Shown: piece after piece, positions 10,012 through 31,368 of the stretch
Layout of the letters: each line of letters starts with the position of its first letter
Position numbering within the stretch: position 1 is the first letter of the stretch
Assembly (NCBI GenBank): GCA_947259715.1
Contig: CAMYNR010000167.1
Span: 37,282-75,855, forward strand
Length of the DNA: 38,574 nucleotides
Direction: 5' to 3'
From: an uncultured Desulfuromonadales bacterium
GTDB taxonomy: Bacteria > Desulfobacterota > Desulfuromonadia > Desulfuromonadales > Geopsychrobacteraceae
Notes under the pieces: model-generated
Told to the model about the DNA's origin: nothing
The model's input: only the letters and a program-made list of their open reading frames with translations
Databases searched by the model: none
Translations under genes and position numbers: made by a program

Positions 10012-11196
10012 TCAATAGTCACGATGACAACCGCGACAGAGTTCGCTTTTCCTTTTTTTGATCAACCGATATTCAAGATCTGAACTGTGCGCCGAATGGC
10101 AGGACATACAACTGATGCGGCCATCGGGCAGCAACGGATAGTCGTCGGGTATGATCATTCCCGCTTTCGGAAAGACATTGACAGGGTGCGAGTAGCCACC
10201 CTGAAAACTAGAATGGCATTTATAGCAGACCCGGTTATTGGTATCCAGCTGACTTTTCAGCAGCGGATGGCCGGTACCGGCGGCAGCAACCTGGCTGTCC
10301 TCCTCCACCTCTTTCGAAGCTGGCTCAGTCGGGCGCTCGACTCCCAGCGACAGAGATACCGGCCGATCCGTCTTGAAGATCAGAAGGTAGTTTTGCCCCT
10401 GGCGATAAGCTTCGCTGGTGAGCTGAATATCTTCAGCCTCCCCTCCCTGATATTCTCGCCGTTCCTGCTGCTCCAGGTAGGTCTTCTCAGTGCTGAAGCG
10501 GAAAACTTCAGAAAGAGAGCGATTCCCGAAGAGATCCATACTTGCCACCTGAAACCGGTATTCCCGGTTGGCATCCAGACCCATCAGGATCATCTCGTGA
10601 TTGCGGGTCAATCTTCCGTCAGAACTGGAGGAATCCATACCGTTGAGACCATAAAGCACTTCGGAGTCGCTGAACTCATCTGTCTGCCAGCGAATCGTGA
10701 CTGTGGTTGAAATCCCGCGTCGCACATCGGCGGCCCGGACCCTGGTGATGACCGGAGGCCGCGACTCGGGCTTTTTGCCTTCCAGGGTTGTCAAGGCTGG
10801 CAATGCAAGCGGCTGCAAAGGGGATCTTTCCCGCCCGTCCCAGGCCCTATAATAAAGCGAGCCAACCAGCTTTTCCGCCGGGATCAGGACCCAGTGCTCG
10901 GTAGCAAAACTCTGGTTCCCTTTGAGCCAGGACAGCTGACTCAACCTTTCTTGTTGCACGACTTTTAGCGGCATATTTTTCTTTGCGGCGCCCTGCTCTC
11001 CTACAACATGGCAGGTAGCGCAATTCCCCGAAAGAAATGGCGCATGGACATAACGTTTGGCCTTGCCAGCGTCAATTGCCGGCCGATGGCAACGACTGCA
11101 ATCCACGGCCGGAATTCCAACTGCAAAGACGAGGGATGTTGAACCCAGGCCGGAGATGAAAAACACCAACCAGGCAAACAAATATAGTCTTTTCAA
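10012..11196 (-). CDS. Secreted pentaheme c-type cytochrome with central fibronectin-III-like domain
   Basis: Signal peptide; 5 CXXCH (CSRCH, CATCH, CYKCH, CMSCH, CRGCH) arranged 2+3 around 'PPVITRVRAADVRRGISTTVTIRWQTDEFSDSEVLYG...LDANREYRFQVASMDLFGN'. Confidence 0.88.
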   Translation of the reverse strand: MKRLYLFAWLVFFISGLGSTSLVFAVGIPAVDCSRCHRPAIDAGKAKRYVHAPFLSGNCATCHVVGEQGAAKKNMPLKVVQQERLSQLSWLKGNQSFATEHWVLIPAEKLVGSLYYRAWDGRERSPLQPLALPALTTLEGKKPESRPPVITRVRAADVRRGISTTVTIRWQTDEFSDSEVLYGLNGMDSSSSDGRLTRNHEMILMGLDANREYRFQVASMDLFGNRSLSEVFRFSTEKTYLEQQERREYQGGEAEDIQLTSEAYRQGQNYLLIFKTDRPVSLSLGVERPTEPASKEVEEDSQVAAAGTGHPLLKSQLDTNNRVCYKCHSSFQGGYSHPVNVFPKAGMIIPDDYPLLPDGRISCMSCHSAHSSDLEYRLIKKRKSELCRGCHRDY

Positions 11197-11375: not shown

Positions 11376-12461
11376 TTATAGGCTGTTATCGCCATCCTTG
11401 GTGGTGTGACAACGGAAACATCCGGTATTTACAGCAGCACCAGTGGTGCCGGCTTCCATGCCAGCATAATCCCAGCGCAGCAGATCATCGTAAGGTGACC
11501 CGTGAGCGCGGTGGCAGGACACACAGGTGACGATCGCTTCGGCAGAGTAGTCGGCATTGGCAGCTGCGACCGGATTTGACAGGGCTACCGGTGCTTCAAC
11601 CGAGTAGCCACCAATGCCCAGGCCGTACTGCTGATACTCAGAAGAAGCAGGCAGAGCACGCATATCGATATCGGTCGGGTGGCGCAGCCAGGGGTTGCTC
11701 ATGTTGGTCGAAGGCAGCGCGTTGATCCCTTCAGCGGCGTGGAACTTACCGTGACACTCGGCACAAAGGTAGCTGATCGTGTCGGCCGAATCATTGCCCC
11801 CCTCGTTACGGGCAACGCCCTTGTAAACGTTGTGGTCGGTAGCGCTGTTGGTGAACTCCCAGTCTTCGTCCTCAACACCGACGATGCCGGAGAGGAAGCG
11901 GTAGCTCTTACCAACCGTAGAACCATCCAGGCCGTCAGAAGGCTCGTGGTGGGCACCCTGAACCGCGCCAAAAGTATCGAGCTCATCGTGATCCCCGTGG
12001 CAACCATAGGTCCCGGAACAGGACAGCTGCTGTGCCCAGGTGACGTCGTCGTTGACAGCGCCCGGATGGGTTTCGTCCCAACCCGGAGGGGTCTGACCAA
12101 GGGCCGCATCTGCAATGTTCAGCTCGTCAACATTGTGCCCTTTGGCATCATCGCCGTCGATAACCCACTTAAAAGAACCGCCTGCAGTGGTGTCAGTCCC
12201 ATAAACGGCTCCATCAACCTGAGGAATGACATTTGAGCCATTGTTGGTAATTGTAGCGCTGGCATGACAACCGGTGCAGTTGGCAGCGCGCAGCAATGCC
12301 GATGCAGGATCAGCGCTACCGTCCCAGCGCATAGGCTCGCCATTCTGGCTGTTATGCATGGTGTGACACTCAACACAGGGCGCCCCGGAAATGGCCGCCA
12401 GGGCATTGCCTGCGAACATGACCAGAGCCATACTCAGCAAAATAAACAGTCTTTTTTTCAT
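11376..12461 (-). CDS. OmcS-like extracellular multiheme cytochrome (5 CXXCH + 1 CX5CH)
   Basis: Signal peptide ending ALA; CVECHTMHNSQNG, CTGCH, CSGTYGCH (CX5CH), CAECHGKFH, VTCVSCHRAHGSPYDDLLRWDY, CFRCHTTKDG. Confidence 0.9.
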   Translation of the reverse strand: MKKRLFILLSMALVMFAGNALAAISGAPCVECHTMHNSQNGEPMRWDGSADPASALLRAANCTGCHASATITNNGSNVIPQVDGAVYGTDTTAGGSFKWVIDGDDAKGHNVDELNIADAALGQTPPGWDETHPGAVNDDVTWAQQLSCSGTYGCHGDHDELDTFGAVQGAHHEPSDGLDGSTVGKSYRFLSGIVGVEDEDWEFTNSATDHNVYKGVARNEGGNDSADTISYLCAECHGKFHAAEGINALPSTNMSNPWLRHPTDIDMRALPASSEYQQYGLGIGGYSVEAPVALSNPVAAANADYSAEAIVTCVSCHRAHGSPYDDLLRWDYAGMEAGTTGAAVNTGCFRCHTTKDGDNSL

Positions 12462-12616: not shown

Positions 12617-13750
12617 TCAAATGCCATCCTTGGTGGTATGGCAGGCAAAACAACCACAGGGCTCTGCCCCCGAATCTTCCACCCCGGCATTACAGTCGTT
12701 CTGGTAGTCCCAGCGCAGCATGTCAGGGTATGGCGAACCGTGAGCCCGGTGGCAGGAGATGCAGGTCACCAGATCTTCACCGGGAACCACATCACTGGTA
12801 ACAGTGCCATCAACAGTCTGCTTGGCGACCGGCGCCAATGGATTATAGGTGGTGTAACCGGAGTATTCCCGGTCCGGATCAGAGGGCAGGACCACATCCG
12901 AAGGATGGCGAATCCAGGTTCCGGCGGCCGAACGCATGCCGTCACCGGCGTTGGGACCATGGTGGAAGCGTGCATGACAGCCGGAGCACATCTCGCCGAT
13001 GCTGTTATTGGCCAGGGTGGTTGCCGTCTGATAGTTCTGGGTGGTGCCCTTGTAAACGTTGTGCTGGGTCGGGCTGGGGTCCTGTTCCCATTTGGGGTCC
13101 TCGACCCCGATCACGCCGTCGGCAGCCAGGTCCTGGAACATGGTATTGCCAAGAAAACGGTACCAACCATCACCTTCGCCGGTCACTCCCGCGACGCCAT
13201 CATCGGCGTGATGAGCCTTATTCGCCAAATGACAACCTTCGCAACCACCAGCGGCGGTTGAAAGAGTGAAATGGCAATTGTAGCAAGTGCTGCTGGTCGC
13301 CACAGGCCCTAAACCGCCGGGTGCGCCATCATCGCTGTGAGCAGCATCGATATCAGCGATACCGAAAACATTATGCCCGAAGGCATCGCCCTGAGAAGCG
13401 ACCCAGAAGAAGTTACCACCGGCCAGAACCGAGTTGCCCGACCCGTTGGCCGGGTATTGCAGACCGCCACCCGGGTTGTAAACCGAGGGAACCTGAGAAT
13501 CGCCGAGAGTGTAAATTGTCTCCGAACTGCCCGGGTTGGAATGGCAGCCGACACAGTCGGTTTTCAGCAGAGTCGGCATTGCGCTCTGCAACTCAACGCC
13601 GCGAAATTGCACCGGCTGGCCATTTTGGCTGTTGTGCATGGTGTGACAATTGACACAGTCACCCTTGACCGCCGCCCAGAGCGGATTTGTCAACAGCATG
13701 GCTAAACCGAACCCGGCCAGAGCCATAACTTTTAAACGCACGATATTCAT
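12617..13750 (-). CDS. OmcS-like extracellular multiheme cytochrome (7 CXXCH)
   Basis: Signal peptide, CVNCHTMHNSQNG, CVGCH, CYNCH, CEGCH, CSGCHARFHHG, VTCISCHRAHGSPYPDMLRWDY, CFACHTTKDG. Start set to the internal ATG preceded by GGAGGTAG. Confidence 0.9.
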   Translation of the reverse strand: MNIVRLKVMALAGFGLAMLLTNPLWAAVKGDCVNCHTMHNSQNGQPVQFRGVELQSAMPTLLKTDCVGCHSNPGSSETIYTLGDSQVPSVYNPGGGLQYPANGSGNSVLAGGNFFWVASQGDAFGHNVFGIADIDAAHSDDGAPGGLGPVATSSTCYNCHFTLSTAAGGCEGCHLANKAHHADDGVAGVTGEGDGWYRFLGNTMFQDLAADGVIGVEDPKWEQDPSPTQHNVYKGTTQNYQTATTLANNSIGEMCSGCHARFHHGPNAGDGMRSAAGTWIRHPSDVVLPSDPDREYSGYTTYNPLAPVAKQTVDGTVTSDVVPGEDLVTCISCHRAHGSPYPDMLRWDYQNDCNAGVEDSGAEPCGCFACHTTKDGI

Positions 13751-16784: not shown

Positions 16785-17852
16785 CTAGTCCTTACTGGTA
16801 TGGCAGGCAGTGCAGCCATCGTTGCTGTTGAGATAATCCCAGCGCAGCAGCTTGTCGTAGGGGCTGCCGTGGCTGCGATGGCAGCTGACGCAGGTGACGA
16901 TCGTATCTCCCTGAAAACTGACCTGGACAAGGGGATTACTGACCACCGTGCTGGCGACCGGCACATCGACCCGATAACTCTGATTCGGCCCGCCGTAGCC
17001 ACGGACCTCATCCCCCGGGGCGGCATTGCCCAGATCGTATTCAACCGGGTGGCCGAACCAGTTGCCGGCCCCGCCGCTGTGGAAATCGTTGTGGCAACGC
17101 ATGCAGAGCGAGCTGATGGTCGAATTATCCATGCTTTGATCGACCCCTTTGTACTGGTTGTGAGCGGTCAAAGTCGGCGTTAATTCCCATTCCGGATCTT
17201 CAAACCCGGCAACCCCGATCAGCATGCGAAATCCTTTGGCGGGGACAGTGCCCGGATCGGTCAGGGCGCCATCCAAACCTTTATGATGGCCGCCAAAGAT
17301 CGCCGAAGCGGGGCTTTCTTTGCTGTGGGTACCATGGCAGCCATACACCCCGGCGCAGGTGACCTGCTGATTGACCGGCCAGTTCCCGTTCCCCGGGGTG
17401 CTGCCATCCGCCGCCGACAGGCTGCCGTTAAAACCGGGCGGCAAAGTTAAAAAGGGATCAGTACTGGCCAGGCCAGTGACATTATGCCCCTTGAGTGGGT
17501 CACCACTGGCCACCCAGTAAAAGTTTCCACCGGCCAGGGTATTGGTATTCTCTTCGGTTCCGGTGGCGGCATAGATCGGGGCGGTAGTTGACATGACGAA
17601 GGGGGTTTCCCCGCCCGCGTTGACGCCGGTATGACAACCGATGCAATCGGTATTCAGCAGGGCGTCATAGGGCCCCTGATCGCCCCATTCCTGCATCGCC
17701 TGGCCATCCTGACTGTAATGCATCGTGTGGCAACTGATGCACTTGCCGGTCACCGCCGCTTGCACCTGCGGCACTGCCAACAGCAATCCGACAACGGTAC
17801 AGAGGGACACGATTGCTTGCAGGAGATCTCGGATAGATCGGTATTCAGCCAA
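16785..17852 (-). CDS. OmcS-like extracellular multiheme cytochrome (5 CXXCH + 1 CX5CH)
   Basis: Signal peptide ending VQA; CISCHTMHYSQDG, CIGCH, CAGVYGCH (CX5CH), CMRCHNDFH, VTCVSCHRSHGSPYDKLLRWDY, CTACHTSKD; same layout as the 11376-12461 gene. Confidence 0.9.
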   Translation of the reverse strand: MAEYRSIRDLLQAIVSLCTVVGLLLAVPQVQAAVTGKCISCHTMHYSQDGQAMQEWGDQGPYDALLNTDCIGCHTGVNAGGETPFVMSTTAPIYAATGTEENTNTLAGGNFYWVASGDPLKGHNVTGLASTDPFLTLPPGFNGSLSAADGSTPGNGNWPVNQQVTCAGVYGCHGTHSKESPASAIFGGHHKGLDGALTDPGTVPAKGFRMLIGVAGFEDPEWELTPTLTAHNQYKGVDQSMDNSTISSLCMRCHNDFHSGGAGNWFGHPVEYDLGNAAPGDEVRGYGGPNQSYRVDVPVASTVVSNPLVQVSFQGDTIVTCVSCHRSHGSPYDKLLRWDYLNSNDGCTACHTSKD

Positions 17853-17878: not shown

Positions 17879-18772
17879 TCAGCGGGAGAAAATTTCGACC
17901 CGCCCGCTGCCTTCATCGACCACGCAGAGTCGCTCCTGCCAGTCAAAGAGTAAATCCGCACCATTCCACAGCTGGCCGGGCCGCTTGCCTTTGCCAAGAA
18001 AGGAGAACTTCTTCTCTCCATTGCGAGAAAAAACAACAACTGTCCCGGCATGCCGGTCAAGCAGATAGAATTGGCCGGATCGATCGACTTCCAGTGCAGA
18101 CGGAAACTCCAGGCCGGTAAGCTTGATCCGCTTTTCGACCTTGCCGGACAGGTCCAGCTGGAACACGCTGCTGGTCAAGGTATCCAGGCCCCAGAGTCGG
18201 TCATCACCAAGTTTAAAATCGGTAAAACCCTTGAAACCGGCATCGCCGGAAAAGCTTTGCACAACCTTGAGGTTGTCATCCAGCCGCACCACCTGCCCCT
18301 TCAGCCGGTCAAGGCCATAGAGCCGGTTGCGGCTGTCGACAGCTAACCTGGAGAGGAAAAGTTTACTGCCATCGGCATGCCGGGGGGTAAAGCGGCGGAC
18401 CTCCTTTTCACGTGGATTGATATAAAGCAGCTCATTGCTGGACCGCTCAACCACCCAGAGGCTACCGGTACCGGTGCGCACCATGGCCACCGGTCTCTTC
18501 AGCTGCCCTCCGGCGGTAAAGGCGCTGAGAAACTTACCCTCCTGATCAAAGGACACCAGTTGCCCGGCGGCGGCGTCAACCACGTAGTAGCGTTTGACCT
18601 GAGCATCGACCGCCACTGCCACCGGCTGTTCGAGACGCACGCCGGAGTCTTTCTGCGGCAGCTGGCGTAACGAAGACCAGGATCCCCCGGCCGCCAGAAC
18701 CAGCTCACTCCCGCCGAGCAGGGCGAAAAAAACCCCCAGGCTCAGCGCCATTTTTATCGAGTACATGTTCAT
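17879..18772 (-). CDS. Secreted NHL-repeat beta-propeller protein
   Basis: Signal peptide; repeats 'QPVAVAVDAQVKRYYVVDAAAGQLVSFDQEGKFLSAF', 'FPSALEVDRSGQFYLLDRHAGTVVVFSRNGEKKFSFLGKG'. Start set to the internal ATG after AGGAGA. Confidence 0.82.
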   Translation of the reverse strand: MNMYSIKMALSLGVFFALLGGSELVLAAGGSWSSLRQLPQKDSGVRLEQPVAVAVDAQVKRYYVVDAAAGQLVSFDQEGKFLSAFTAGGQLKRPVAMVRTGTGSLWVVERSSNELLYINPREKEVRRFTPRHADGSKLFLSRLAVDSRNRLYGLDRLKGQVVRLDDNLKVVQSFSGDAGFKGFTDFKLGDDRLWGLDTLTSSVFQLDLSGKVEKRIKLTGLEFPSALEVDRSGQFYLLDRHAGTVVVFSRNGEKKFSFLGKGKRPGQLWNGADLLFDWQERLCVVDEGSGRVEIFSR

Positions 18773-18788
18773 TCTCCTGAACCTTTTC

Positions 18789-19958
18789 TCAGTAACTCTG
18801 ATGACACTGCACGCAAAGCCCGCGCTCACCGCTGCCATGGAGGAAATATTTATACATGGTCCCCGAGTTGGCGTCATGGCAGGTCAGACAGTCAACCTCC
18901 CGGCCGTTACGGGGGTCGATCACCCCCTCGCCCTGGGGATGGGTAAATTCCCCATGCAGGTCATGACAGCGAGCGCAGACATTCTGCCCATCGATTAACA
19001 TGGCCGGGTTGTCTCCGCCGTGCCCATAGTGACAATTGGAGCAGCTGCTCCAGTCCTGATGCTTGTGCAGCATCTTGTCGCGTTTGGCAAAGGTATCTTC
19101 ATGGCAGCCACGACAGACCGCACCTTCATTGGTCGGCAGCAGACCGGGCCGGTCACCCACATGGGGGTTATGGCAGAGGGTGCAACTGTTTTCCGCCCCA
19201 CCGACACCGAGATGGCTGTGGACCTTATTGAAGCTGTCGAGGGTCTGCTGGTGACAATCAAGGCAGAGGTTACTGCCGCCCTGCCCGGCATGACACGCCT
19301 GACAGTTCTTCTCGGCAAACGGGGCATGGCTGACCGCCCGCAGCAGCACCGCATCGGAGCCGCCATGGGGGTTGTGGCAGCCGAGGCAGTCGAGCGGTTG
19401 CAGATTGCGCCCCAGATGAGCGGACTGCAGAGCCTGACTCGGCTGATGACACTCGAAACAAAGGGCACTGCCGGAGTTTTTCAGCAGCCGGTAATCATCG
19501 CCGGCATGGGCGCTGTGACAGGCATTGCACTTGCCCTGCTGATAAGGTTTATGCGCGACCTTAAAGGTCTGCTGAGAGGACTCATGACAGCCATAGCAAA
19601 GATCGGCGCCGCTGGCTTTTAACAACCCAGAGTTGCCCGATGCATGGGGCTCATGGCATTCGCTGCAGCGGCCATCCTTGACCGGCTGATGGGGCACGGC
19701 ACTCGCCTTGACCCGCTGTTCCACCGATTGATGGCAGGAGTAACAAAGCTGTTCTTCCTTGTCCAGCAGCAGGCCGGCGTGTCTTGAGACATGCGGGCTA
19801 TGGCAGCGGTCGCACTGCTGACCGGCGACCGGCTGATGCACCACCCGCCCCTTGAACTTGGCAGCGTCGTGGCACTGGTAACAATCTTTAGCCAGGACCG
19901 TCAGCGGCAGACTGAGCAGCGCCAGGGTCATGAAGAGATATCGGATCATAGGCATCAC
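18789..19958 (-). CDS. 16-heme paired-CXXCH c-type cytochrome
   Basis: 16 CXXCH motifs counted in 389 aa, in repeating H-x-P...CxxCHxPH...LL...LCxxCH units; signal peptide. Confidence 0.93.
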   Translation of the reverse strand: MMPMIRYLFMTLALLSLPLTVLAKDCYQCHDAAKFKGRVVHQPVAGQQCDRCHSPHVSRHAGLLLDKEEQLCYSCHQSVEQRVKASAVPHQPVKDGRCSECHEPHASGNSGLLKASGADLCYGCHESSQQTFKVAHKPYQQGKCNACHSAHAGDDYRLLKNSGSALCFECHQPSQALQSAHLGRNLQPLDCLGCHNPHGGSDAVLLRAVSHAPFAEKNCQACHAGQGGSNLCLDCHQQTLDSFNKVHSHLGVGGAENSCTLCHNPHVGDRPGLLPTNEGAVCRGCHEDTFAKRDKMLHKHQDWSSCSNCHYGHGGDNPAMLIDGQNVCARCHDLHGEFTHPQGEGVIDPRNGREVDCLTCHDANSGTMYKYFLHGSGERGLCVQCHQSY

Positions 19959-21931
19959 TGACCTCCCGGATGACAGGGAGTGCAGTTCCCATTGGCAAAA
20001 GGTTCATGTTTGACCGGCAGGGTCAGAGACGCATCCGGTCCGCCGTGGGGGTCATGACAGCTAAGGCAGCTGTCCGCAGACGGCAGCAGATTGTTGTGCG
20101 CCAGAGTCAAGGCATTTGGGCTGATATCGTGGCAATCGCCGCAGAGTTTTGCATCAGCCTGCTTCGCCCGGCTTTTTTGCGGAGCGTGAGGATCGTGGCA
20201 AGCCTGGCAGTTGCCCTCGATGGCCGGTTGATGGCCTTTGCCTTTGTCCCAATAGCGATCGACCTCATGACAGCTCAGACAGAGCTGCGGCCGTTCCTGC
20301 AGCAGGTAGGCGGGCTCGTCGTTGCCATGGGCATAATGGCAGACCGCACAGTTCTGATGCGCCGTTGGGGTGCCCGGCTGAACCTTTTGCGGGGCATGAC
20401 AGCTGACACAGAGTTCGCCGGCGGCGCCGGTCAGCAAAAACGGCTGCTCACTGCCATGGGGATAATGGCAGAGCTGGCAGCGCCCCTGCTTGAAGGGCTG
20501 ATGTCGATTCGGTTGCTGACGCTCGGTTTCAATAGTGCCATGACAGCTGCCGCAATTCTCGGCCCCGCTCTTGATCAGCAGTTTGGCCTGATCGGAGCCG
20601 TGCGGGTTATGGCAAGCGGAACAGCTGCCAGCGACGAAGGGACGGTGCAGGCTGGGCTGCACCAGGGTCTCGCCGACCAACTCATGGCAGTCGGCACAGA
20701 GCAGCCGTTGCTGCTGCTTGAGGATCCCGGCATGCAGGCTCTCGTGGGGCAAATGACAGCTCAGGCAATCGCCGGCACTGGCCGGCTGATGCTTGACCCG
20801 TTGACGCTTGGCATAATCAGCATGACAGTCTAGGCAGAGCTGGTTGCCAGGCTTTCGCAGCAGCGCCGTCTGTCCAGCAGCAGGCAGATGAGGCGCATGG
20901 CAAACCAGGCAATCCCCTTTTTCGGCGGGGGCATGCTGATGACCGGAACCTTCTGCCGGGGCCTCGGGACCAAAGCTCTTGAATTGATGACAATCAAAGC
21001 AGAGCTGCTGCGGCAGCTTTTTCAACATTCCGGAATGATTGCTGGCATGCACCTGGTGACAGCTGGTGCATTCTCCGTTGGTTGCCGGGGCATGGGCTCC
21101 GCTGGCAGCATAGCTTTTCAGCTCGGCCGCATGGCAATCGACACAGAGTTGATCAGCGCTGGCATTGACTGCAAAGGGTTGTCCACTGGCGGCCGGCTGA
21201 TGACACTCCTGACACTGCCGATTTGCCACCGGCTGATGAACGGTATTTTTCAGCAGCTGCTGATTATCGGCCGAGTGAACATTGTGGCATTCGCTGCAGG
21301 ACGACTTGACCCCATAACCGCCATGCTGGCGGACAAAGGCTTGATTGTCGATTTGATGGCAATCCTGGCAGAGTTCGGTCTCTGCTTTGATCAGCAGCTT
21401 GGTCACGCTTGAGCCATGGGTTGCATGACAGGTGGCACAGCCCTTCTCCAATGGCGCATGCTTGAATGCCTGATTGAACGGTGCGCGCTCATGGCAGGCA
21501 AAGCAGCTCTCGTCCCGCTCAGCAGAGAGCAGATACTTTTCCGGGGCGTTATGCGGCTGATGACAGAGGTTGCATTCGCCCTGCTTGACCGGTGGGTGGA
21601 TTTCCGTCGCTGCTTTAAGCTCTGCGGCCAGTTCGGTATGACAGAAAAAGCAGATATTCGGCACCGGCGCTTTCAGGTAGGCTCCGCCAACCAGGCCGTG
21701 CTTGCGATGACAGCCGGCACAATCACCTTTGGCCACCGGCTGATGGACCACACCGGCAGAAAACTTTTCCTGATATTCGTTATGGCAATCCAGGCAGGAT
21801 TTGCCGCCTTTGGTTGGCGGGGCGCCAGGCGCGCAGGCACTCAGCAGGACAACCACGAGGACTGCAGCAGCTGCCAGCAGCCCGCTGTGAAATACTTTCC
21901 ATTTATGATTCATTGCCTGTTTCTTCCTCAT
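19955..21931 (-). CDS. 26-heme paired-CXXCH c-type cytochrome lipoprotein
   Basis: 26 CXXCH motifs counted in 658 aa; lipobox LLSAC; repeated 'H(Q/A)PxxxGxCxxCHxPH...LLxxxxxxLCxxCH' units. Alternative start 21913. Confidence 0.93.
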   Translation of the reverse strand: MRKKQAMNHKWKVFHSGLLAAAAVLVVVLLSACAPGAPPTKGGKSCLDCHNEYQEKFSAGVVHQPVAKGDCAGCHRKHGLVGGAYLKAPVPNICFFCHTELAAELKAATEIHPPVKQGECNLCHQPHNAPEKYLLSAERDESCFACHERAPFNQAFKHAPLEKGCATCHATHGSSVTKLLIKAETELCQDCHQIDNQAFVRQHGGYGVKSSCSECHNVHSADNQQLLKNTVHQPVANRQCQECHQPAASGQPFAVNASADQLCVDCHAAELKSYAASGAHAPATNGECTSCHQVHASNHSGMLKKLPQQLCFDCHQFKSFGPEAPAEGSGHQHAPAEKGDCLVCHAPHLPAAGQTALLRKPGNQLCLDCHADYAKRQRVKHQPASAGDCLSCHLPHESLHAGILKQQQRLLCADCHELVGETLVQPSLHRPFVAGSCSACHNPHGSDQAKLLIKSGAENCGSCHGTIETERQQPNRHQPFKQGRCQLCHYPHGSEQPFLLTGAAGELCVSCHAPQKVQPGTPTAHQNCAVCHYAHGNDEPAYLLQERPQLCLSCHEVDRYWDKGKGHQPAIEGNCQACHDPHAPQKSRAKQADAKLCGDCHDISPNALTLAHNNLLPSADSCLSCHDPHGGPDASLTLPVKHEPFANGNCTPCHPGGQ

Positions 21932-23546
21932 GCAATTCCTGGTTCAGCTTTTTCCATACTGAACGATTCAGCTTAATGGTAGAACGATCTCGCAACTGCT
22001 TAACCAACCCTGCGCGCTGCTCCTGAAAACGATCCGCCTGCAATTGATTCTTGATCTGCCCCTTGACCTTCTCCAGGGGAGCGACCTCAGGTTCTCCCTT
22101 GCGGACCAGTTTGATAAACAACAGGTTGTCGCCATCCTTCACTCCGGCACTGACCTGTCCGGCGGAGAGCTTCCTGACCTCGGCCTGAACGACCGGCTGC
22201 AAATGCGCCAGGGGAGTTTTCTCAATTTGAATTCCAGCAGGGGAGATCGGCTCCATGACTTTAAAGAAATCTTCCCCCGATTTAATCCGTTTTTCCAGTT
22301 GTCTGGCCAGCTTCAACTCATTGGTTTTGACGACTGCTAATTCCACCATTCCCTGCCGTGAGTACTTATCCTGATGCTGCCGGTAATAGGCTTCGATATC
22401 GGCATCGCTCACCTCAACCTGTGGCTGGATCACCAGAGCTTCCAATTCTTTGATAAGGCGATGCTGAGAATAGAACTGAAAGGTGTGCTTGAGGGGCGGC
22501 TCTTCTTCATACCGCCTGGCCAGAGCTTCCATGCCGGTCAGGGTCTGAACCAGCAGATCGTTGACAATCCGCTGTTTTGCGTCCTCAAAATTTTCAGCGG
22601 ATTTAGTGGAATGACTGCGTTTTTTCCGTGATTTGACCACAGCTTCATAAATAAAGCCGGCGGGAACTTCCGTTTTGCCGATGATCACGGCTTGCTTGGA
22701 TTTAAGTTCATCATCTATGCCATCTGGTTGAATTGCGGCGATAACTTCATCATTGACCTGAACATTGTAATCAGCTTTAAGCTTTTCCAGCAGCTGGTAG
22801 GTCAGCTCGTATTCCTGCTGCTTTAAGGAGTCGCGGATCAGTTTCTGTTTGATGATTTCAAAGTCCGCCTCATTCCCCTCGCCCCGATCAAGGACCTCAA
22901 TGAAATACCAGGAATGGCCGAAGCTGGCCGGGCCTCCCGCTTCACCAGGTTTTAAGCTCATGGCCAGGGGTTGCAAGGATTCAGGAATCCGGGTGTAGCG
23001 CATTGGGCCGGTCGCCTCCATCTGCTCAACAACTCCCTGAAGGCCAGCTGTTTCGACGACCTGATCCAGTGGGGTGCCCTGGTCCATGTATTTCTTGATT
23101 TCCTGCGCCTGCTCTTCGTCAGTGACCGCCAGCATGCGCAGATTCAGGATCGGGGTGTAGCCCTCTTTGTACAGCTGCCAGAGTTCATCCCGGGTTGGTA
23201 TGGTTTTGCGCGCATCGACCTCTTCCCCCTTCAATTGCATCAGGGCCCGGACTTTCAAAAAGACCTCAAGCTTTTTCCGGTAGCTGGGGCTGTCCTGCAA
23301 CTGCATATCTCTGGCCTCCTGGGCCAGCAGCATCCAGTCGATGAATTCATCAGGGGATTCCTGTAAATTCATACCCGGTTCGCGCCATTCGCGCCACCAG
23401 TGCCGATAATCTTCCGGGGTAAACTCTACCCCATTGATGGTAACCAGCTCTTTGCCGCCAAACAATGCAGAAGCGTTGTCGACAGAGCTCAGCAGAACCA
23501 GCAAGGTGAACAAGCTGAAACAAATCGTTTTGATCTTTATTGACAC
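21903..23546 (-). CDS. Secreted parvulin-type (PpiC/SurA-like) peptidyl-prolyl isomerase with two modules
   Basis: Signal peptide, SurA-like N-terminal helical region, parvulin-like segments around 'ILNLRMLAVTDEEQAQEIKKYMDQGTPLDQV...FGHSWYFIEVLDR' and 'MVELAVVKTNELKLARQLEKRIKSGEDFFKV...GDNLLFIKLVRK'. Confidence 0.8.
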   Translation of the reverse strand: MSIKIKTICFSLFTLLVLLSSVDNASALFGGKELVTINGVEFTPEDYRHWWREWREPGMNLQESPDEFIDWMLLAQEARDMQLQDSPSYRKKLEVFLKVRALMQLKGEEVDARKTIPTRDELWQLYKEGYTPILNLRMLAVTDEEQAQEIKKYMDQGTPLDQVVETAGLQGVVEQMEATGPMRYTRIPESLQPLAMSLKPGEAGGPASFGHSWYFIEVLDRGEGNEADFEIIKQKLIRDSLKQQEYELTYQLLEKLKADYNVQVNDEVIAAIQPDGIDDELKSKQAVIIGKTEVPAGFIYEAVVKSRKKRSHSTKSAENFEDAKQRIVNDLLVQTLTGMEALARRYEEEPPLKHTFQFYSQHRLIKELEALVIQPQVEVSDADIEAYYRQHQDKYSRQGMVELAVVKTNELKLARQLEKRIKSGEDFFKVMEPISPAGIQIEKTPLAHLQPVVQAEVRKLSAGQVSAGVKDGDNLLFIKLVRKGEPEVAPLEKVKGQIKNQLQADRFQEQRAGLVKQLRDRSTIKLNRSVWKKLNQELHEEETGNES

Positions 23547-24121
23547 TTAGCAACTCCCTTTTCAATCCAGTCGGTAATAATTTCTTGAGACATCCTGGCC
23601 ATCAGGCCAGTTATGGTTGTCACATTTCCAAAATGCATCGCTCTGCGATACTCATCTCCCCAGCGATGATGCAAACTCTGCAGGACCAGTTGGCCGCGCC
23701 GCACATCATAAAGTTTCAGCTGCATGGCGACAACCGGCACCGCGCCCGGACCCCGGCCAAGGTCCATGCCGACCTCGGTCAGTCGGCCTTGAACCACTGC
23801 ATCGATCTGCAGCTTTTCCTGCAGGTCGGCATAGTGAAAAGATTCCAGCAGATCGCCTGGCAGCAAGCGGTGCCGGAGCCGGAACAGACTGACGTTCCCT
23901 TCCGGTTGCACCTCAAAGCGGCCTGAGTTAACCAGGGCGCCATGAAAAATTCGCTGGCCGGTCACACCGGCCTGGTCCGCGCGGGTCCAGTTGTCGAAGG
24001 GCAGCACCGCGACCCGGCAGACGCTTTCCGGCTCTGCGTTCGCCATCACCCGGGTCTGCAAAGCCCCCTGCCCGGCGCAGCCGGTCAGCAGGAGGAAAAG
24101 AAAAATAGCAAAGCTTCGCAT
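23537..24121 (-). CDS. CsgG/GNA1162/LpoB-like lipoprotein
   Basis: Lipobox LLTGC; 'CRVAVLPFDNWTRADQAGVTGQRIFHGALVNSGRFEV...QIDAVVQGRLTEVG...MQLKLYDVRRGQLVLQSLHHRWGDEY'. Confidence 0.68.
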   Translation of the reverse strand: MRSFAIFLFLLLTGCAGQGALQTRVMANAEPESVCRVAVLPFDNWTRADQAGVTGQRIFHGALVNSGRFEVQPEGNVSLFRLRHRLLPGDLLESFHYADLQEKLQIDAVVQGRLTEVGMDLGRGPGAVPVVAMQLKLYDVRRGQLVLQSLHHRWGDEYRRAMHFGNVTTITGLMARMSQEIITDWIEKGVAKCQ

Positions 24122-25614
24122 CAGAAATCCGGCACCCAGGACTCGGCCTCTTGCTCTTCGACGGCCTGCTGTTCAACTTTCATCAACAATTCTTTACGGG
24201 CAATCCGGCGGCGGTTCCCAAGTTCGTCAACCCCGTCGAAGCTCAAGTAAACGGCATTCTCATCGCCAAGCGGTTTAAACTCTGTTTCTGTCGGCAGTCG
24301 CTCCCCGTCAACCTGTAGCAGGATCTTTCCCTGGCCCGATTTCAGCTGCGCCTGCCAACTGCGCAAAGAGAACTCGGCGCTGACCTCATTGAGACTGAGA
24401 AAATACTTGCCAGCGCGCTGACTGACCCGCGCTTCAACCAGCGGCGCGTTGCGCTGCATGACGACTTGCCGGGTAGCGCTGGAGCGGTTTCCGGCCAGAT
24501 CCCAGACCTGCAGGGTAATCTCGTAGGGACCATCGGCCAGATAAAAACCGTCAGCGCCATGCCCTTCCCAGACCAATCGCTCCGGCATGTCGCCTTCATA
24601 TTCGTTACTGACCAGCAGCAGGCCGTCCTCGTTGCGAATCTCCAGGCCCCAGCGCCCCATCGGCTTTAAGTCGGCGATCCGGGGCAACAGCAGCAAGCTG
24701 TCGCGGAACACCCGACGACCATCGATCTGCTGACCATTCTTCAGTTCGATGGTCAACCCGGGCGGATTATTGATCACCTGGTATGAGGCGATGTTTTCCA
24801 CCCGCTCGGCGAAGCGACCGCTGCCCCACTCGAGGATTAAATCGATCGGATACTGCCCTTCCTGCTCCGGAGCAAACCACTTCCCGGAATAGATACCGGT
24901 GCGCGGATTGGCCTGCAGCAGACTGCGTCCCGCTTTGCTCTCAGCGAAAATCCGGGTTGGCCGGGCATCGAGAAAGCGGATCTTCAGAGTCGCGTCGATC
25001 TGCTGGCGCCCCTTGACATAGGCAGGAAACAGCTGCATGCCGGTCAGCTGGTAATCGCGCCGGTCAGGCACCCCTGTCTCTGCCACCTGCCCCTCCAGGC
25101 GGAGCAGTAATTGGTCCAAAAGGGGGCCGGACAGATCATCGATGGTCTGCGGCTGTCCCAAGGCCAGGAAAGTCACCTTCTCAGCTAAGCTGGTGGCCCC
25201 GGTCTCTGACCAGATCGGCATTCCGGTGACCGTATCCAGAGCGGTAAAGGTCAGCCCCAGCTGTGGATTGTCGCCACCGATTTCAGTGATAGTGCCCAGC
25301 AGGGCGACGACACAGCTCAGGTCTTTACCGATCTTCTTAATCAGAAAGCTGTCCAGGTAGCTGAAAGAGCGCAGCTTATTGGCGCTCATGAACTTGACCA
25401 CCTGGTCCTGAGGCACCATCTCCACCCCGAGCCGCTGGAGGGAGTTGGCGACAACCTGGGTGAATGGCAGATTGATCCCATTCACCCCTTGGCTGAAGTC
25501 AGCCATCGGCAGCAGCGCGACCCGCTGGGCCTGGGCGGGAGCATTTGCCAGACCGAGCAGCAGAATCGAGCAGACAGCGAAATGCAGTGCTATGCGCTTA
25601 ACAGCAATCAGCAA
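24121..25614 (-). CDS. Secreted protein with CsgG-like N-terminal domain and C-terminal beta-rich (FlgD/Ig-like) region
   Basis: Signal peptide; 'RVALLPMADFSQGVNGINLPFTQVVANSLQRLGVEMVPQDQV...CVVALLGTITEIGG...FTALDTVTGMPIWSETGATSL', then beta-rich segment with 'DGPYEITLQVWDLAGNRSSATRQVVM'. Confidence 0.68.
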   Translation of the reverse strand: MLIAVKRIALHFAVCSILLLGLANAPAQAQRVALLPMADFSQGVNGINLPFTQVVANSLQRLGVEMVPQDQVVKFMSANKLRSFSYLDSFLIKKIGKDLSCVVALLGTITEIGGDNPQLGLTFTALDTVTGMPIWSETGATSLAEKVTFLALGQPQTIDDLSGPLLDQLLLRLEGQVAETGVPDRRDYQLTGMQLFPAYVKGRQQIDATLKIRFLDARPTRIFAESKAGRSLLQANPRTGIYSGKWFAPEQEGQYPIDLILEWGSGRFAERVENIASYQVINNPPGLTIELKNGQQIDGRRVFRDSLLLLPRIADLKPMGRWGLEIRNEDGLLLVSNEYEGDMPERLVWEGHGADGFYLADGPYEITLQVWDLAGNRSSATRQVVMQRNAPLVEARVSQRAGKYFLSLNEVSAEFSLRSWQAQLKSGQGKILLQVDGERLPTETEFKPLGDENAVYLSFDGVDELGNRRRIARKELLMKVEQQAVEEQEAESWVPDF

Positions 25615-25617
25615 CGC

Positions 25618-26190
25618 CTACTCCTCGATGGTCCCCAGCAGCCGCTGAGCGAGTCGATAACTCACCTGGTTGATATCTGCGCCGACAAAGCCGAACATGC
25701 GGTTAAAGGTGCTGTAGCCGGTTTCGCTTCCGGAACTCTGCCAGATAATCTGACCGGTTTTCACATCGATCAGGCGCAAGGTGGCGGCGACCACCGGATA
25801 GCTGTAATTGCCATTCTGCCGCTCACTGAAATCCTCCACCGCACCGGCGATATAGGCCTGGACGCTGAGTTCCTGGCCGAGCCGCTGCGCAGTGGCGAGA
25901 TCGAGGGTTTCCTGATCCTTACGCACCAGTTCTTCGCGCAGAAAGCGTTGCGCCTCGCCCTTCTCCACCACCTCAAAGAGACCGCGGCGGAGAATTTCCG
26001 TGGTCACCGCATCCTGAAACCGCTCATGAGCAAAGGTTTCGTCGGTGTGGTTTTCCAGCGGCAGAACCACTACCCGCTTTACGTAGCCTAGCCCCAGAGT
26101 CTCTGCGGCATAATGCGCCGGACCGGACCGGGCGCAGCCGGCAATGCCCAAGGTCAGGAGCAGCAAAAGTAAGACCAGGTATCTTTGCAT
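25618..26190 (-). CDS. CsgG/GNA1162/LpoB-like lipoprotein
   Basis: Lipobox-like LGIAGC; 'VKRVVVLPLENHTDETFAHERFQDAVTTEILRRGLFEVVEK...VQAYIAGAVEDFSE...ATLRLIDVKTGQIIWQSSGSETGYS'. Confidence 0.7.
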   Translation of the reverse strand: MQRYLVLLLLLLTLGIAGCARSGPAHYAAETLGLGYVKRVVVLPLENHTDETFAHERFQDAVTTEILRRGLFEVVEKGEAQRFLREELVRKDQETLDLATAQRLGQELSVQAYIAGAVEDFSERQNGNYSYPVVAATLRLIDVKTGQIIWQSSGSETGYSTFNRMFGFVGADINQVSYRLAQRLLGTIEE

Positions 26191-26276
26191 GTCATTCACC
26201 CTCTTTCCAACAAGATTTATCCGCTTTAGCGTACTCTTGGTTCTCGTCACTCATATCTCTCAAAACGCCCCGGCTC

Positions 26277-26307
26277 GCGACCTCAGCGATTTTCCCGCTG
26301 AGGCCGC
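26277..26307 (-). promoter_or_regulatory. Intercistronic stem-loop between the beta-barrel gene and the CsgG-like block
   Basis: Minus strand GCGGCCTCAGCG-GGAAAAT-CGCTGAGGTCGC: 12 bp stem with one G-U, 7-nt loop, no U tract. Confidence 0.6.
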
Positions 26308-26322
26308 AGCCAAAGTCCCGGA

Positions 26323-28422
26323 TCAATAATTGGCATTCACGGTTGAAGATAAAGCCCAGCTGTCGCCACCTTCGGAGGAGATGAAGCTGCCGGTCGTCTG
26401 CCAGGACAGATGCCGGGTGATCAGCCAGCTCAGGGTCGAATTGTACTGCTCGCTCTCTTCATCGCCAAATTCATAGGCCAGACCGAAAATCGCCTGAAGC
26501 TTACGGGAGGCGAGCAGGGTCGCATTGCCAGCCAGAGTATTCTGGTTGGTCTCTTCGTCACGATTGAAACTGCCGCCGAGCTGCAGGACATCCGACGGGC
26601 GGTAATTGACGCTCACCCCATAACGGGTTGAGGCATCGCTGATGTCCGCCTCATCAACCGGTCCATCTGTGCTGTTCTCAACATAGCTGGCATTCAGATT
26701 GACATCCAGCTTCGGTGACAGCCGGGCATTGGTATTGAGAGTCACCCCCATGGTCGTCGTCTCGCCGCCGCTCTGGTTTTCCGTGCGGCTCCAACTATTG
26801 AGCAGGCTGGCAGTCAAATCTGGATAGATGATCGCGTTAAAGATCGCGTTGACCGAGTCACTGGTGGTTTGCCGGGCAGCGCCGTCGTCCGATTCGGTCC
26901 GGGTATAGCCGAGGGAAAAATCCAGCGTCCGGAGCAGGGCTGTGTTCATCGAAGCGGCATAGCTGCGGGTATTGCGATCTTCGGCATCCTCGATCTTATC
27001 GATGCTGTCACTCAAACTGAGAGTAAAACTCAGCCGCTCGGTCGGAAAATAGCTGGCGCTGATCGATTGATTCAGCTGTTCGCTGTCCGGACCGCGGTTC
27101 TGCTCATTGTCAACCCGGCGGAAATTGTAGCTGACCTGCCAGCGTTCATTCGGCCGGTAGGTCAGGCCGATTTCGCTCTGGTGGCTGATGCTGGTCCGGC
27201 GAATGCTTACTCGCGGCGCGGCGGAGGTGCTGATCTCACCCGCCTCAATCTCGGTGACAAAGACCGGGTCAACCGAAACAATGCTAATATCGGAAACCGC
27301 TTTGACAAAGCGGCTGTTGGCAGTATTCAGCAGGTCAAGAACAACGACGGTGCGAAAATTGTCCAGCCGGTAGGTGGCGGGGATATTCGCCACCTGGGTC
27401 CAGCTGTTGCCATCGTCACTGGTATAGACCCGCCAGGAAAGCAGTCCTTGCAAGGCCAGGCTCAGCTCCCGATCCAGCAGAATCTGCAGGCGATCGACGG
27501 GTTGAAAATCAACCTGAACAGCAATATTCTGACTCAGCTGACTGCCGACTATATCAATCCCCGCGGAGGTGATCTCATCATTATCATTCAGCGCGCCGTT
27601 GCCTGCTAAGGTCCCATTGGCCGGGGTATCGTCCCCGCCCGAGAAAGCAAAGGAGATACTGACCGGCAGGAGAAAATCTCCCCCACCCGTGTTCGGCGTT
27701 TCAGTGACGGTTTCATTGTCCCGATACTGTTGGGAGGCGAAGACCGTCAGCGTTTCTGCGAAAAAGCTGCGTGAGTACTCCAACTGAGCCAGGTGCTCGA
27801 TGTTTTCTGTTGACGAGCCATCAAGCTGATCATCGGTCGTCGCGCTGCGAAAATCGTAGAGCATGGCAAAGTCGGACCACTCGTGCTCAATACTGCCGCC
27901 AAAATCGATCGATTCGGTATCCACCTGGCGTGGCGAACCGTCATCATAATTGTGACCCTGGTTAAAAAAAGCGCGCAGGGCAGGCCAATCCTCTTTCAAG
28001 GTGAAAAATGTCCCGCCCCAGGAATTGTCCGTGGTCGAGGGCGAGCCCTCCCGATTCACCCGATTCTGCGAGGCGCTCAGACCCAGGAAGAACAGGTCAT
28101 TCCGCGTATCAAGGGCAATCGATGGATTGATCGAATCGGTGTCGACCCCCTCCGACGGCAGATTTTCGTTGTAGCGCAGTGAGCCGGACAAGGTCATGAA
28201 CTGGCTCAACTGCTTATTGTAGTTCAGGGTATAGCTGTGGCTGAACTGCGAGGTCGACTCGATATCGCCACCGGTCTCCCGATAGGTCCAGTTCCCGGTA
28301 AACCCGAGCGGATCCCCGGCCTGCACCGGAATCGCCAGGGCCAATAGCAGGCACAGCCAGCAACCGAGCGGCAGCAAGCGCAACGCGGGATATGTGTCAG
28401 AACTGATCTTCAACATCGGCAC
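26323..28422 (-). CDS. Outer-membrane beta-barrel protein with a discoidin/F5-8C-like insertion
   Basis: Signal peptide, many alternating amphipathic strands (e.g. 'LTASLLNSWSRTENQSGGETTTMGVTLNTNARLSPKLDVNLNASYVEN'), C-terminal NANY; central 'LLSWRVYTSDDGNSWTQVANIPATYRL...NSRFVKAVSD'. Confidence 0.78.
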   Translation of the reverse strand: MPMLKISSDTYPALRLLPLGCWLCLLLALAIPVQAGDPLGFTGNWTYRETGGDIESTSQFSHSYTLNYNKQLSQFMTLSGSLRYNENLPSEGVDTDSINPSIALDTRNDLFFLGLSASQNRVNREGSPSTTDNSWGGTFFTLKEDWPALRAFFNQGHNYDDGSPRQVDTESIDFGGSIEHEWSDFAMLYDFRSATTDDQLDGSSTENIEHLAQLEYSRSFFAETLTVFASQQYRDNETVTETPNTGGGDFLLPVSISFAFSGGDDTPANGTLAGNGALNDNDEITSAGIDIVGSQLSQNIAVQVDFQPVDRLQILLDRELSLALQGLLSWRVYTSDDGNSWTQVANIPATYRLDNFRTVVVLDLLNTANSRFVKAVSDISIVSVDPVFVTEIEAGEISTSAAPRVSIRRTSISHQSEIGLTYRPNERWQVSYNFRRVDNEQNRGPDSEQLNQSISASYFPTERLSFTLSLSDSIDKIEDAEDRNTRSYAASMNTALLRTLDFSLGYTRTESDDGAARQTTSDSVNAIFNAIIYPDLTASLLNSWSRTENQSGGETTTMGVTLNTNARLSPKLDVNLNASYVENSTDGPVDEADISDASTRYGVSVNYRPSDVLQLGGSFNRDEETNQNTLAGNATLLASRKLQAIFGLAYEFGDEESEQYNSTLSWLITRHLSWQTTGSFISSEGGDSWALSSTVNANY

Positions 28423-28472
28423 AGCAGATCGTCAAACCCATCTCTCAAAAGACCAAGCAGCAATAAACAAAA

Positions 28473-29267
28473 TCAGTTCACCAGATTGTGCGGGCCAATA
28501 TGGCAATGGATGCACTGCGGGTAGGTTTCATGCAGTTCGTCAAAATGCGGCTGTCCATGACAGGTACGACATTTGGGAATGACCTTGTGCTGAAACTTGT
28601 GGCAATACACACAATTGAACTGGTGGTGTTTGGTCCGATTCTCCGAAAGCAGCACCGCCGGCCCGGGATGACAGGAGGCGCAGAAAGAAACCGGCACATT
28701 GTTGTCGTAGGCCACCTTCAGCGGCATGTGCGGACGGTGGCACTCAAGACAGTTGGCATAGCTCTGTGAATCCTGGTGCGGCTCGTGGCATTCCAGGCAG
28801 GTCAGAAATTGACCATGCTGCTGATGGCACTCCTTGCTGTCGAGCACCGAATGATTGCTCGGATAATTCAACAACTCCTGCCCCTGGTTGGGGTGACAGG
28901 TCATACAGGCAGGTCGAACCTGCGAAGCCCTGGCGAAATCGATATTCAACGGGCTGTGCGGCCGATGGCAGTTCAGACAATCCGGCGAACTGAAATGGGG
29001 ATTGCCGCCTGACTCATGGCACAGAGAGCACTCGGGGATGGCGTTGGCGCCCCGCGGCGGATGCTCCTGATGGCAATCAGTACAGCCGATGGCATCGCGG
29101 TGCTGTCCGCCAGCGGCCTCGATCTCGGCGATCTGACTGCTATGGCACTTTTGGCAGTCACTTGGCAGCAATTCCGGCGCGGCAGCAGCGCTCGCCACCG
29201 CTCCGGCAGCAAAAGGCAGCAGCACCAGTGAGACAAGCAGAGAGCTGGTTATGAAAAAGCTTTTCAT
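28473..29267 (-). CDS. Secreted 11-heme c-type cytochrome (plus one SXXCH variant motif)
   Basis: Signal peptide MKSFFITSSLLVSLVLLPFAAGAVASA; 11 CXXCH counted; extra S-K-E-C-H in register. Start set to the internal Met of the 28473..29354 ORF. Confidence 0.9.
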   Translation of the reverse strand: MKSFFITSSLLVSLVLLPFAAGAVASAAAAPELLPSDCQKCHSSQIAEIEAAGGQHRDAIGCTDCHQEHPPRGANAIPECSLCHESGGNPHFSSPDCLNCHRPHSPLNIDFARASQVRPACMTCHPNQGQELLNYPSNHSVLDSKECHQQHGQFLTCLECHEPHQDSQSYANCLECHRPHMPLKVAYDNNVPVSFCASCHPGPAVLLSENRTKHHQFNCVYCHKFQHKVIPKCRTCHGQPHFDELHETYPQCIHCHIGPHNLVN

Positions 29268-29289
29268 CCTCGTTGACCTTTTCCCACGG

Positions 29290-31191
29290 CTAAATCCGAT
29301 CGCGGCGATCGCGCGGATGGCACTGCATACAGACCTTGGCGACCCTCTGGCCATGACACTTCACGCAGAAATCCACCTTGATCACAGCTGCCGATTTGCC
29401 CTGAATAGTCGGGGCCGGCGCAGCGATCCGTTCCGGCGTGGCTGCGGCCGCAGTCGGCACAGGCAACAGAATTGTTTGCGCGTCCTGGCGCGGCGGATCT
29501 TGCGGCGCAGGAGCAGGCAAATCTTTCTTACTGGATTGAATTACAGCGGCACGAGCATTCGAGCGTGGCAGGGCGTGAATTGCAGAATGAACCTGGTCAT
29601 TTGGCGGCGCTATCTCAAAGAGCTGCTCTCCCGCCATTTCTTCCAAACTGGGGGTAACAACTTTGCCATCGGGGTGAATTCCTCCAGAATCTCTCGCTAG
29701 GCCTGACTTTCCTTCGTCAACTGGCTCAGCAACCGGTTCTTTCACGGGCAAAGCCGAGTCGGTAGCAGCACTTTGCGTGCTTTTAATTTGCAAATTATCT
29801 GCCACCGGTTCTCCGCCGGTTGACGCTGGGGTCTCCGACTGGGCAGCGGGAATCCGCAACTCGGTCGCCTCACCGCGGGTCTTCAGCAGAGCCGGCAGCA
29901 GCTCTTCGCTGCGCAACTGCTCCGCAACGCGATATCCTTCAAGGGGATCACCGTAGGGTCCCACCAGAACTTGCTGCCAGACCCCGCGGGCGCCACGATC
30001 GAGGGGTTGAATATGGACCGGGTAACCTTTGGAGCGCAGCTTATCGGCCAGCTGCTGAGCGCTGCTCTCATCGCGGCTGATCGAAGTCAGCACCAGATAA
30101 TCGCCTACCGCATCAGCCTGCAAATCGACATCGATATGCCCAATGGCGATCAACTCCGCTTCGGCGACCGGTTCTGCAGCGAAAGGCTCAGGCCGACCAG
30201 CCTGCCCGGCGATCCTTTCTCCTGGCTCGCCGTAAATCGGCGGCAGGCCGCCAACAAATTCAAAGACCTGAATCCGATGATTAAAGGTGTCTGCAACCAG
30301 CAGACGTCCCTGGCCATCAACGATAATGTCGTTCGGATAGTAAAACCAACCGCGCCCCTGCCCGAGGCCGCCGATTTCGAACAGATATTCGCCGCTGACA
30401 GCGTATACCGATACGGTGTGACGCTGATAATCGACCAGATAGACCTGGCGACGAAACTCATCGATAGCGATCCCGCGGGGCCGCGATAACTTACCCGGCT
30501 CCCCCCCTTTTTCGCCAAATTTATAGAGATAGCGTTCGTTCTGATCGTAAACGTAGACGCGGCCCATAGATTCACTGACAAAGTAGAGGCGGCCGGCGCT
30601 GTCGATGTCGATGGCCAGAATTGACGCCTTTTCTTTAACCCCCAACACTTCGTCAAGGGGCTCAATGGTGCGCAGATAGCGGCCTTGCGGATCAAGCACC
30701 ACGACCCCGCTGCCATTCTGGCCGACAACATAAAGATTTCCCGTGGTACCAACCACCATCGCCAGCGGGGAAAAACCGGGCAGGTTGGGGAAATAAATTT
30801 TTTGTCTTGGCAGAAAAGCGCCGTCGTAGACGGCAATATGCGGCCTGGGTTCAGTCTCGCTGGCGCCAAGGCAGACATAAAGCTTGCCATCCTTGAGGAA
30901 ACTGCCACTGATGCTGTTAAGGCCGCGACCGGCACCGATGGAGAGGTAGGGGAAAAAATCGGCGGTCAACACCACCAGCTTGTTTTTCAAAGGGCTGACC
31001 AGATAGATTTCATCTTCCAGCGGATCGTAAGCGAGGGAAGCGGGAAAACGGATCGGCAGGCCGGCCTCATCCTGGGTGATCAGTTTGACCGAGCGTATCG
31101 GTCTGACCTGCAGATTTTCTGTCCAACCTGCCGCAGTCGGCGAGCAGAACAGCAGGCAGAGCAACACACAGCCCAGGCGATAGACGGACAT
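29290..31191 (-). CDS. NHL beta-propeller - SPOR-like - C-terminal diheme fusion protein
   Basis: NHL repeats ('LSRPRGIAIDEFRRQVYLVDYQRHTVSVYAVSGEYLFEIGGLGQGRGWFYYPNDIIVDGQGRLLVADTFNHRIQVFE'), SPOR-like 'DYLVLTSISRDESSAQQLADKLRSKGYPVHIQPLD...WQQVLVGPYGDPLEGYRVAEQL', C-terminal CVKCH/CMQCH. Start at ATG 31191 after GGGGGAG. Confidence 0.85.
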   Translation of the reverse strand: MSVYRLGCVLLCLLFCSPTAAGWTENLQVRPIRSVKLITQDEAGLPIRFPASLAYDPLEDEIYLVSPLKNKLVVLTADFFPYLSIGAGRGLNSISGSFLKDGKLYVCLGASETEPRPHIAVYDGAFLPRQKIYFPNLPGFSPLAMVVGTTGNLYVVGQNGSGVVVLDPQGRYLRTIEPLDEVLGVKEKASILAIDIDSAGRLYFVSESMGRVYVYDQNERYLYKFGEKGGEPGKLSRPRGIAIDEFRRQVYLVDYQRHTVSVYAVSGEYLFEIGGLGQGRGWFYYPNDIIVDGQGRLLVADTFNHRIQVFEFVGGLPPIYGEPGERIAGQAGRPEPFAAEPVAEAELIAIGHIDVDLQADAVGDYLVLTSISRDESSAQQLADKLRSKGYPVHIQPLDRGARGVWQQVLVGPYGDPLEGYRVAEQLRSEELLPALLKTRGEATELRIPAAQSETPASTGGEPVADNLQIKSTQSAATDSALPVKEPVAEPVDEGKSGLARDSGGIHPDGKVVTPSLEEMAGEQLFEIAPPNDQVHSAIHALPRSNARAAVIQSSKKDLPAPAPQDPPRQDAQTILLPVPTAAAATPERIAAPAPTIQGKSAAVIKVDFCVKCHGQRVAKVCMQCHPRDRRDRI

Positions 31192-31368
31192 CTCCCCCCA
31201 GTTTTTTCTCTGCAGATTTGAGATCATTCCGGCAAAACCCAATCCAGTTTGAAACGCGGCAATTACTTACCAGGACAGCTGTGGAGGCAAAGATACACCT
31301 TTAAAGCCGGGCATTATTACACCATGCTGGCATACCTTTTGGTTTTTTCCCCTCAATAGAGCAGACCC

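Follow-up and report, generated by a model that had tools for sequence, protein, structure and literature searches.

The window analysed here is a 38,574-nt stretch of DNA from an uncultured Desulfuromonadales bacterium (contig CAMYNR010000167.1, positions 37,282 to 75,855), and it encodes three paralogues of one multihaem cytochrome family (P0001, P0002 and P0003), all on one strand. Two of them belong to class A, whose members carry C-x5-CHG at the position of OmcS haem 3, and one (P0002, directly upstream of P0001) belongs to class B. The features are as follows:

11376..12461 (-): P0001, OmcS-like class A cytochrome of 361 a.a., with a signal-peptide-like start, five CXXCH motifs and one CX5CH
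12363..12377 (-): haem 1 motif CVECH of P0001, then TMH (H36)
12264..12278 (-): haem 2 motif CTGCH of P0001
11997..12020 (-): CSGTYGCH (C148-H155) of P0001, CX5CH at the OmcS haem-3 position, codons TGT TCC GGG ACC TAT GGT TGC CAC
11946..11954 (-): AHH (H171, H172) after the CX5CH, candidate distal ligands; HH invariant in class A (85/85)
11751..11765 (-): haem 4 motif CAECH of P0001, then GKFH
11511..11525 (-): haem 5 motif CVSCH of P0001, then RAH
11406..11420 (-): haem 6 motif CFRCH of P0001
12617..13801 (-): P0002, class B paralogue with seven CXXCH
13271..13285 (-): CYNCH of P0002, site 3a (spacing 2 to 6 in relatives)
13229..13243 (-): CEGCH of P0002, site 3b, just before AHH
16785..17852 (-): P0003, second class A paralogue, five CXXCH and one CX5CH
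17334..17357 (-): CAGVYGCH, the CX5CH of P0003, absent from the initial annotation
17879..31242 (-): same-strand cluster encoding NHL propellers and several multi-CXXCH proteins
21903..23546 (-): PPIC-type PPIase within the cluster
26323..28422 (-): outer-membrane barrel protein within the cluster

The initial annotation had described P0001 as having five CXXCH and one CSGTYGCH, and this is what we find (residues 148-155, at 11997-12020 of the minus strand). It had also counted six potential sites as in OmcS; the count holds if the CX5CH is included, but P0001 is not a protein with six CXXCH motifs (it has five). The mature part of P0001 contains 12 Cys, all within the six motifs. In P0002, CYNCH and CEGCH both sit in the region matching the CX5CH.

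Domain searches add some detail to the neighborhood. P0003 matches TIGR01904 (the NCBIfam CxxxxCH/CxxCH domain) with 28.9 bits (cut-off 27), the best stretch being residues 319-353, away from its CX5CH. The barrel-like protein has a weak match to NF041027 (GSU2204 family; 30.6 bits, with the cut-off at 350), and a multihaem protein at 10012-11196 has a match below cut-off to PF16656 (purple acid phosphatase N-terminal domain) between its CXXCH-containing parts. Class A and class B genes adjoin on one strand (<600 bp) in 24 of the 43 loci with a class B gene (e.g. L001, L004, L009, L012, L082 and L085, as well as the 12617-13801 gene of the window), and the adjoining proteins may be partners. 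Locus L012, which encodes a class A protein, belongs to Malonomonas rubra DSM 5091.

Conservation of the CX5CH motif

We collected relatives of these proteins, starting from one genome scan that yielded 78 loci. Further searches were positive for 35 of 98 relatives, for 46 of 297 genomes from the phylum at E 1e-10 and for 36 of 277 from the class at E 1e-30; no relatives were found on the viral contigs searched. A profile search over 202 loci returned 270 matches, and removal of 68 duplicates and eight short ones left 194 distinct proteins (six short ORFs were also dropped in an earlier count). They comprise 138 class A proteins, 45 class B proteins and 11 others, all with CXXCH at the site, of which nine are OmcS-like or more distant and two are intermediate. 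One protein counted as class A (L058, CCVEEGCH) is ambiguous, with a spacing of either four or five.

All 194 proteins have C-Xn-CH at the haem-3 place, and none has lost the site. The class A pattern is nearly always C-x-G-x-x-G-C-H-G, with a Gly before the second Cys in all 138 and a Gly at X2 in 135, and HH follows it in all 138. In the non-redundant set (124 rows), C148, G153, C154, H155, G156, H171 and H172 are invariant in 85 out of 85 class A rows; the Gly and HH played no part in defining the class, as the two Cys and the His partly did. The joint conservation of two Cys and an adjacent His, as expected of a c-type CXnCH site, is thus observed in 85/85, partly by definition. Both codons are used at each of the key residues among the 138 genes: C148 is TGT in 85 and TGC in 53, C154 is TGC in 71 and TGT in 67, and H155 is CAT in 83 and CAC in 55, so silent changes have occurred while the residues remained unchanged.

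CX5CH arises in 121 out of 100,000 shuffles of the non-CXXCH residues of P0001, and a single CX5CH in one protein is therefore only moderately surprising. For the family, chance can be dismissed, because the motif is kept in 138 of the 194 distinct proteins and is found in none of 180 further ORFs from the first 146 loci that carry four or more CXXCH (those ORFs contain 16 CX3CH, 10 CX4CH and one CX1CH). A sequencing or frame error as its source is ruled out: the P0001 ORF is uninterrupted, and 138 proteins have the motif. Its conservation throughout a large family suggests that the CX5CH works as a haem site.

Homology to OmcS and variation of spacing

In OmcS all six haem sites are of the CXXCH type. 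The class A profile matches OmcS of Geobacter sulfurreducens (6ef8/6nef, a hexahaem filament) over residues 7-349 of 6ef8_A with an E-value of 4.2e-27 (3.2e-4 for P0001 alone), and the two share six sites in order, the CHTMHNS start and the CHRAH block. The profile lays QLTCAGTTGCHG on OmcS QLHCSSCHDPHG without gaps and places C148 on the first haem-3 Cys, which supports the initial assignment of the motif to the ordinal position of OmcS heme 3. In the same ungapped HMM alignment, H155 is paired with the second His of OmcS CSSCHDPH rather than with the proximal one. The CX5CH at site 3 and the HH further on are both class A features that set it apart from OmcS, and the conserved His of class A HNxY has no His opposite it in the OmcS HMM alignment. 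A CXXCH with surroundings like those in class A is found in two proteins of the outgroup, L074 and L075 (FGCANCHDASGGHHGG and FDCIDCHGAVGGDHHG, respectively), and in L075 SYRFL follows further on, as in class A.

A tree of 120 rows was built with the columns of the CX5CH site left out (midpoint root, for drawing only). The OmcS-like rows, together with L074/L075, branch outside the rest; class A is a grade in which class B is nested, in a clade of 34 (SH-aLRT 98) that also includes two class A rows. The A, B and other labels change at least three times on this tree. From the tree and the context we take site 3a of class B (rather than 3b) to be the counterpart of the CX5CH, the alignment itself being ambiguous. 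The spacing at site 3a is two in 26 proteins, three in eight, four in eight, five in two and six in one (n = 45), and it changes at least 11 times over 32 tree rows.

Spacing varies at another site as well. An extra, seventh site before haem 4 is found in 26 out of 138 class A proteins (L047, L015, L051 and L171 among them; 10 of the 138 rows, which have no HNxY anchor, were left unscored), with a spacing of two (10 proteins), three (four), four (eight), five (one), six (two) or seven (one), changing at least five times over 12 tree rows. At both sites plain CXXCH alternates with stretched forms among near relatives, with the Cys and the CH always kept; this is the strongest argument that the stretched sites of the family still take haem. 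Unlike these other stretched sites, the class A CX5CH itself is fixed in length.

A haem site or a disulfide hairpin

Taken together, the sequence comparisons make it quite probable that haem c is genuinely attached at CSGTYGCH, which would be a CAGCH-like motif lengthened by three residues. The two thioether bonds would be carried by C148 and C154, H155 would be the proximal ligand, and the distal ligand is likely to be one His of the HH that comes next. P0001 would then be a six-haem, OmcS-like extracellular cytochrome, which may polymerise, and a haem in the haem-3 place would leave no gap in its chain. His residues are available for this: the proximal His at 33, 66, 155, 237, 317 and 352 are each kept at ≥94% in class A, as are further His at 36, 109, 171, 172, 210, 241, 261 and 320, so that the six proximal and eight further His suffice for six bis-His haems with two left over. 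H36, the second His of CHTMH, is a His in 81 of 85 class A rows and would be the likely haem ligand across a subunit interface.

Attachment could be carried out by the ordinary ResB/CcsA (System II) machinery. The genome of this bacterium (77% complete) encodes two ResB and CcsA pairs, on contigs 153 and 69; a third CcsA-domain protein sits beside a hemA-like gene and is probably HemX. A CX15CH site is known to be served by a dedicated lyase, CcsA1, and the initial annotation had proposed looking for such an enzyme: none is encoded in the window, which is on contig 167, the CcsA/ResB matches of the genome being on contigs 153, 141 and 69. In five out of 78 loci the flanks of a class A gene contain a CcsA gene, a number that may be slightly above background. 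Together with its absence near the window, this indicates that a dedicated lyase is not a general feature of class A. The five loci (L016, L026, L042, L055 and L070) have the CcsA-like gene within a few kb of the class A gene, four of them with a ResB-like gene.

The predicted structure raises the main alternative. In the AlphaFold2 model of P0001 (84 sequences; pLDDT 76, pTM 0.78) the CX5CH forms a beta-hairpin of strands 146-149 and 153-156, with a block pLDDT of about 94 and the two Cys on opposite strands; most of the CXXCH sites are at short helices. A hairpin can keep two Cys at roughly the distance they have in CXXCH, and it can also hold a disulfide; neighboring C and H residues in a strand face opposite sides. 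A cross-strand disulfide without haem is thus, as far as the model goes, the principal competitor. No PDB chain was matched in a Foldseek search with the P0001 model, and OmcS and OmcE themselves are described as matching only close homologues in structure searches (PMC9473688). The P0002 model is poor (pLDDT 53.8) and was excluded from the evidence.

If class A had lost the haem, C148 and C154 would be bonded to each other, H155 would be the distal ligand of a neighboring haem and P0001 would have five haems. The confident hairpin suits this arrangement, as does the alignment of H155 with the second His of CSSCHDPH; a fixed spacing of five with Gly at X2 and X5 is as expected here as it is for a haem site, 59 of 170 family members have one to five spare Cys outside the motifs, and the eight conserved non-proximal His exceed the need of six haems. 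P0001, however, has no Cys outside its motifs, and relatives with three, four, five or six spacers always keep the CH. Class B, nested in class A, has plain CXXCH at apparently the same site, so that haem would have to have been lost and then regained, and a missing haem 3 would presumably break an OmcS-type chain. We consider a disulfide in place of the haem unlikely.

Nothing in the sequence forbids a haem held by a single thioether (C154-H155), or one held without a covalent bond, C148 being free or serving another purpose, and single-Cys attachment occurs in some eukaryotes; but C148 is as invariant as C154 (although it partly defines the class), which makes this arrangement quite improbable. 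The initial annotation had left two options, a new attachment spacing or the loss of a heme, with a gap in the wire as the result. The second, in the form of a degenerate, non-functional site, has the unusual spacing in its favor and is scarcely credible given invariant residues in 85/85 rows, no site lost and no degenerate version among 194 proteins, and key class A codons that have changed silently but never by replacement. The first of the two, a haem site of new spacing, is the option that fits the sequences best.

Comparison with known cytochromes

The motif is kept across a large bacterial family, and standard motif searches miss such a site. If haem is bound at the CX5CH, a CXXCH count falls one haem short for many OmcS-like cytochromes, and their electron path is gapless; if it is not, a large class of 'nanowire' homologues is without haem 3, and OmcS-like conduction cannot be assumed for them. 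We lean, with some reserve, towards a broader statement: that haem c is attached in a whole OmcS-type clade at a hairpin motif of fixed length (C-A-G-x-x-G-C-H-G, CX5CH), that attachment tolerates every spacing from two to seven at homologous sites, as a rule with no dedicated lyase nearby, and that haem counts and wire models based on CXXCH only are wrong for this clade. The family is a natural series of spacings (two to seven) at homologous sites, in which the tolerance of attachment is directly testable.

Either outcome touches DA_402 of Desulfurivibrio alkaliphilus, the leading candidate for the wire in sulfide-oxidising iron respiration, which is up >100-fold on iron oxide and is predicted to form an OmcS-like filament (PMC12545173, Nature 2025). 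Both published DA_402 primers match one ORF (L203:12914-14320, genome G290) with six CXXCH and CAGAKGCH, which makes DA_402 a class A protein; it differs from P0001 by an extra CXXCH before haem 4. The same genome encodes other members: two of class A (L203:14680-16035, CAGSMGCH, and L204:16480-17685, CATATGCH) and one of class B (L203:793-1914, with seven CXXCH). In its passages on DA_402, PMC12545173 predicts seven motifs as CX2-5CH, of which six were aligned with OmcS and one was set aside as having no paired His. On that count the CX5CH must be among the seven; it may or may not be the motif set aside, and we have reckoned this possibility as a point against a CX5CH haem. The same passages do not single out the CX5CH, its conservation or its chemistry.

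Predicted sites of this kind are thus already in print, as CX2-5CH in the DA_402 passages of PMC12545173 and as CX3-15CH in the motif counts of PMC4245776 (Shi 2014). The remark in the initial annotation that no demonstrated CX5CH heme was known still stands among openly licensed PMC papers, and in that literature we found no account of the strict conservation of CX5CH or of the spacing series.

Several known systems share features with the present one. Cytochrome c3 has CX4CH haem sites, and these, like the CX4CH of TIGR01904, are moderately stretched likewise, in a different family and with a different spacing. In the oet cassette of syntrophic sulfate reducers (OmcX, OmcS-like and Apc2a), OmcS-like genes lie beside a porin-cytochrome conduit, according to the sections of PMC10553843 that describe it, and the cluster in our window likewise encodes multihaem proteins and a barrel protein; the cytochromes there were identified by searching for the word CxxCH, which would leave a CX5CH site uncounted. 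The Pcc outer-membrane cytochromes, for which the relevant part of PMC4245776 counts CX3-15CH as haem motifs, also combine atypical spacings with extracellular electron transfer, but they are different proteins and the sites are motif-count predictions. OmcZ, as described in the structural passages of PMC9473688, offers a stretched site in a filament cytochrome that was shown by cryo-EM: a loop of 14 residues separates the two Cys of haem 1. The fold of OmcZ is unrelated, the loop is a long one at an interface, and only one site is involved.
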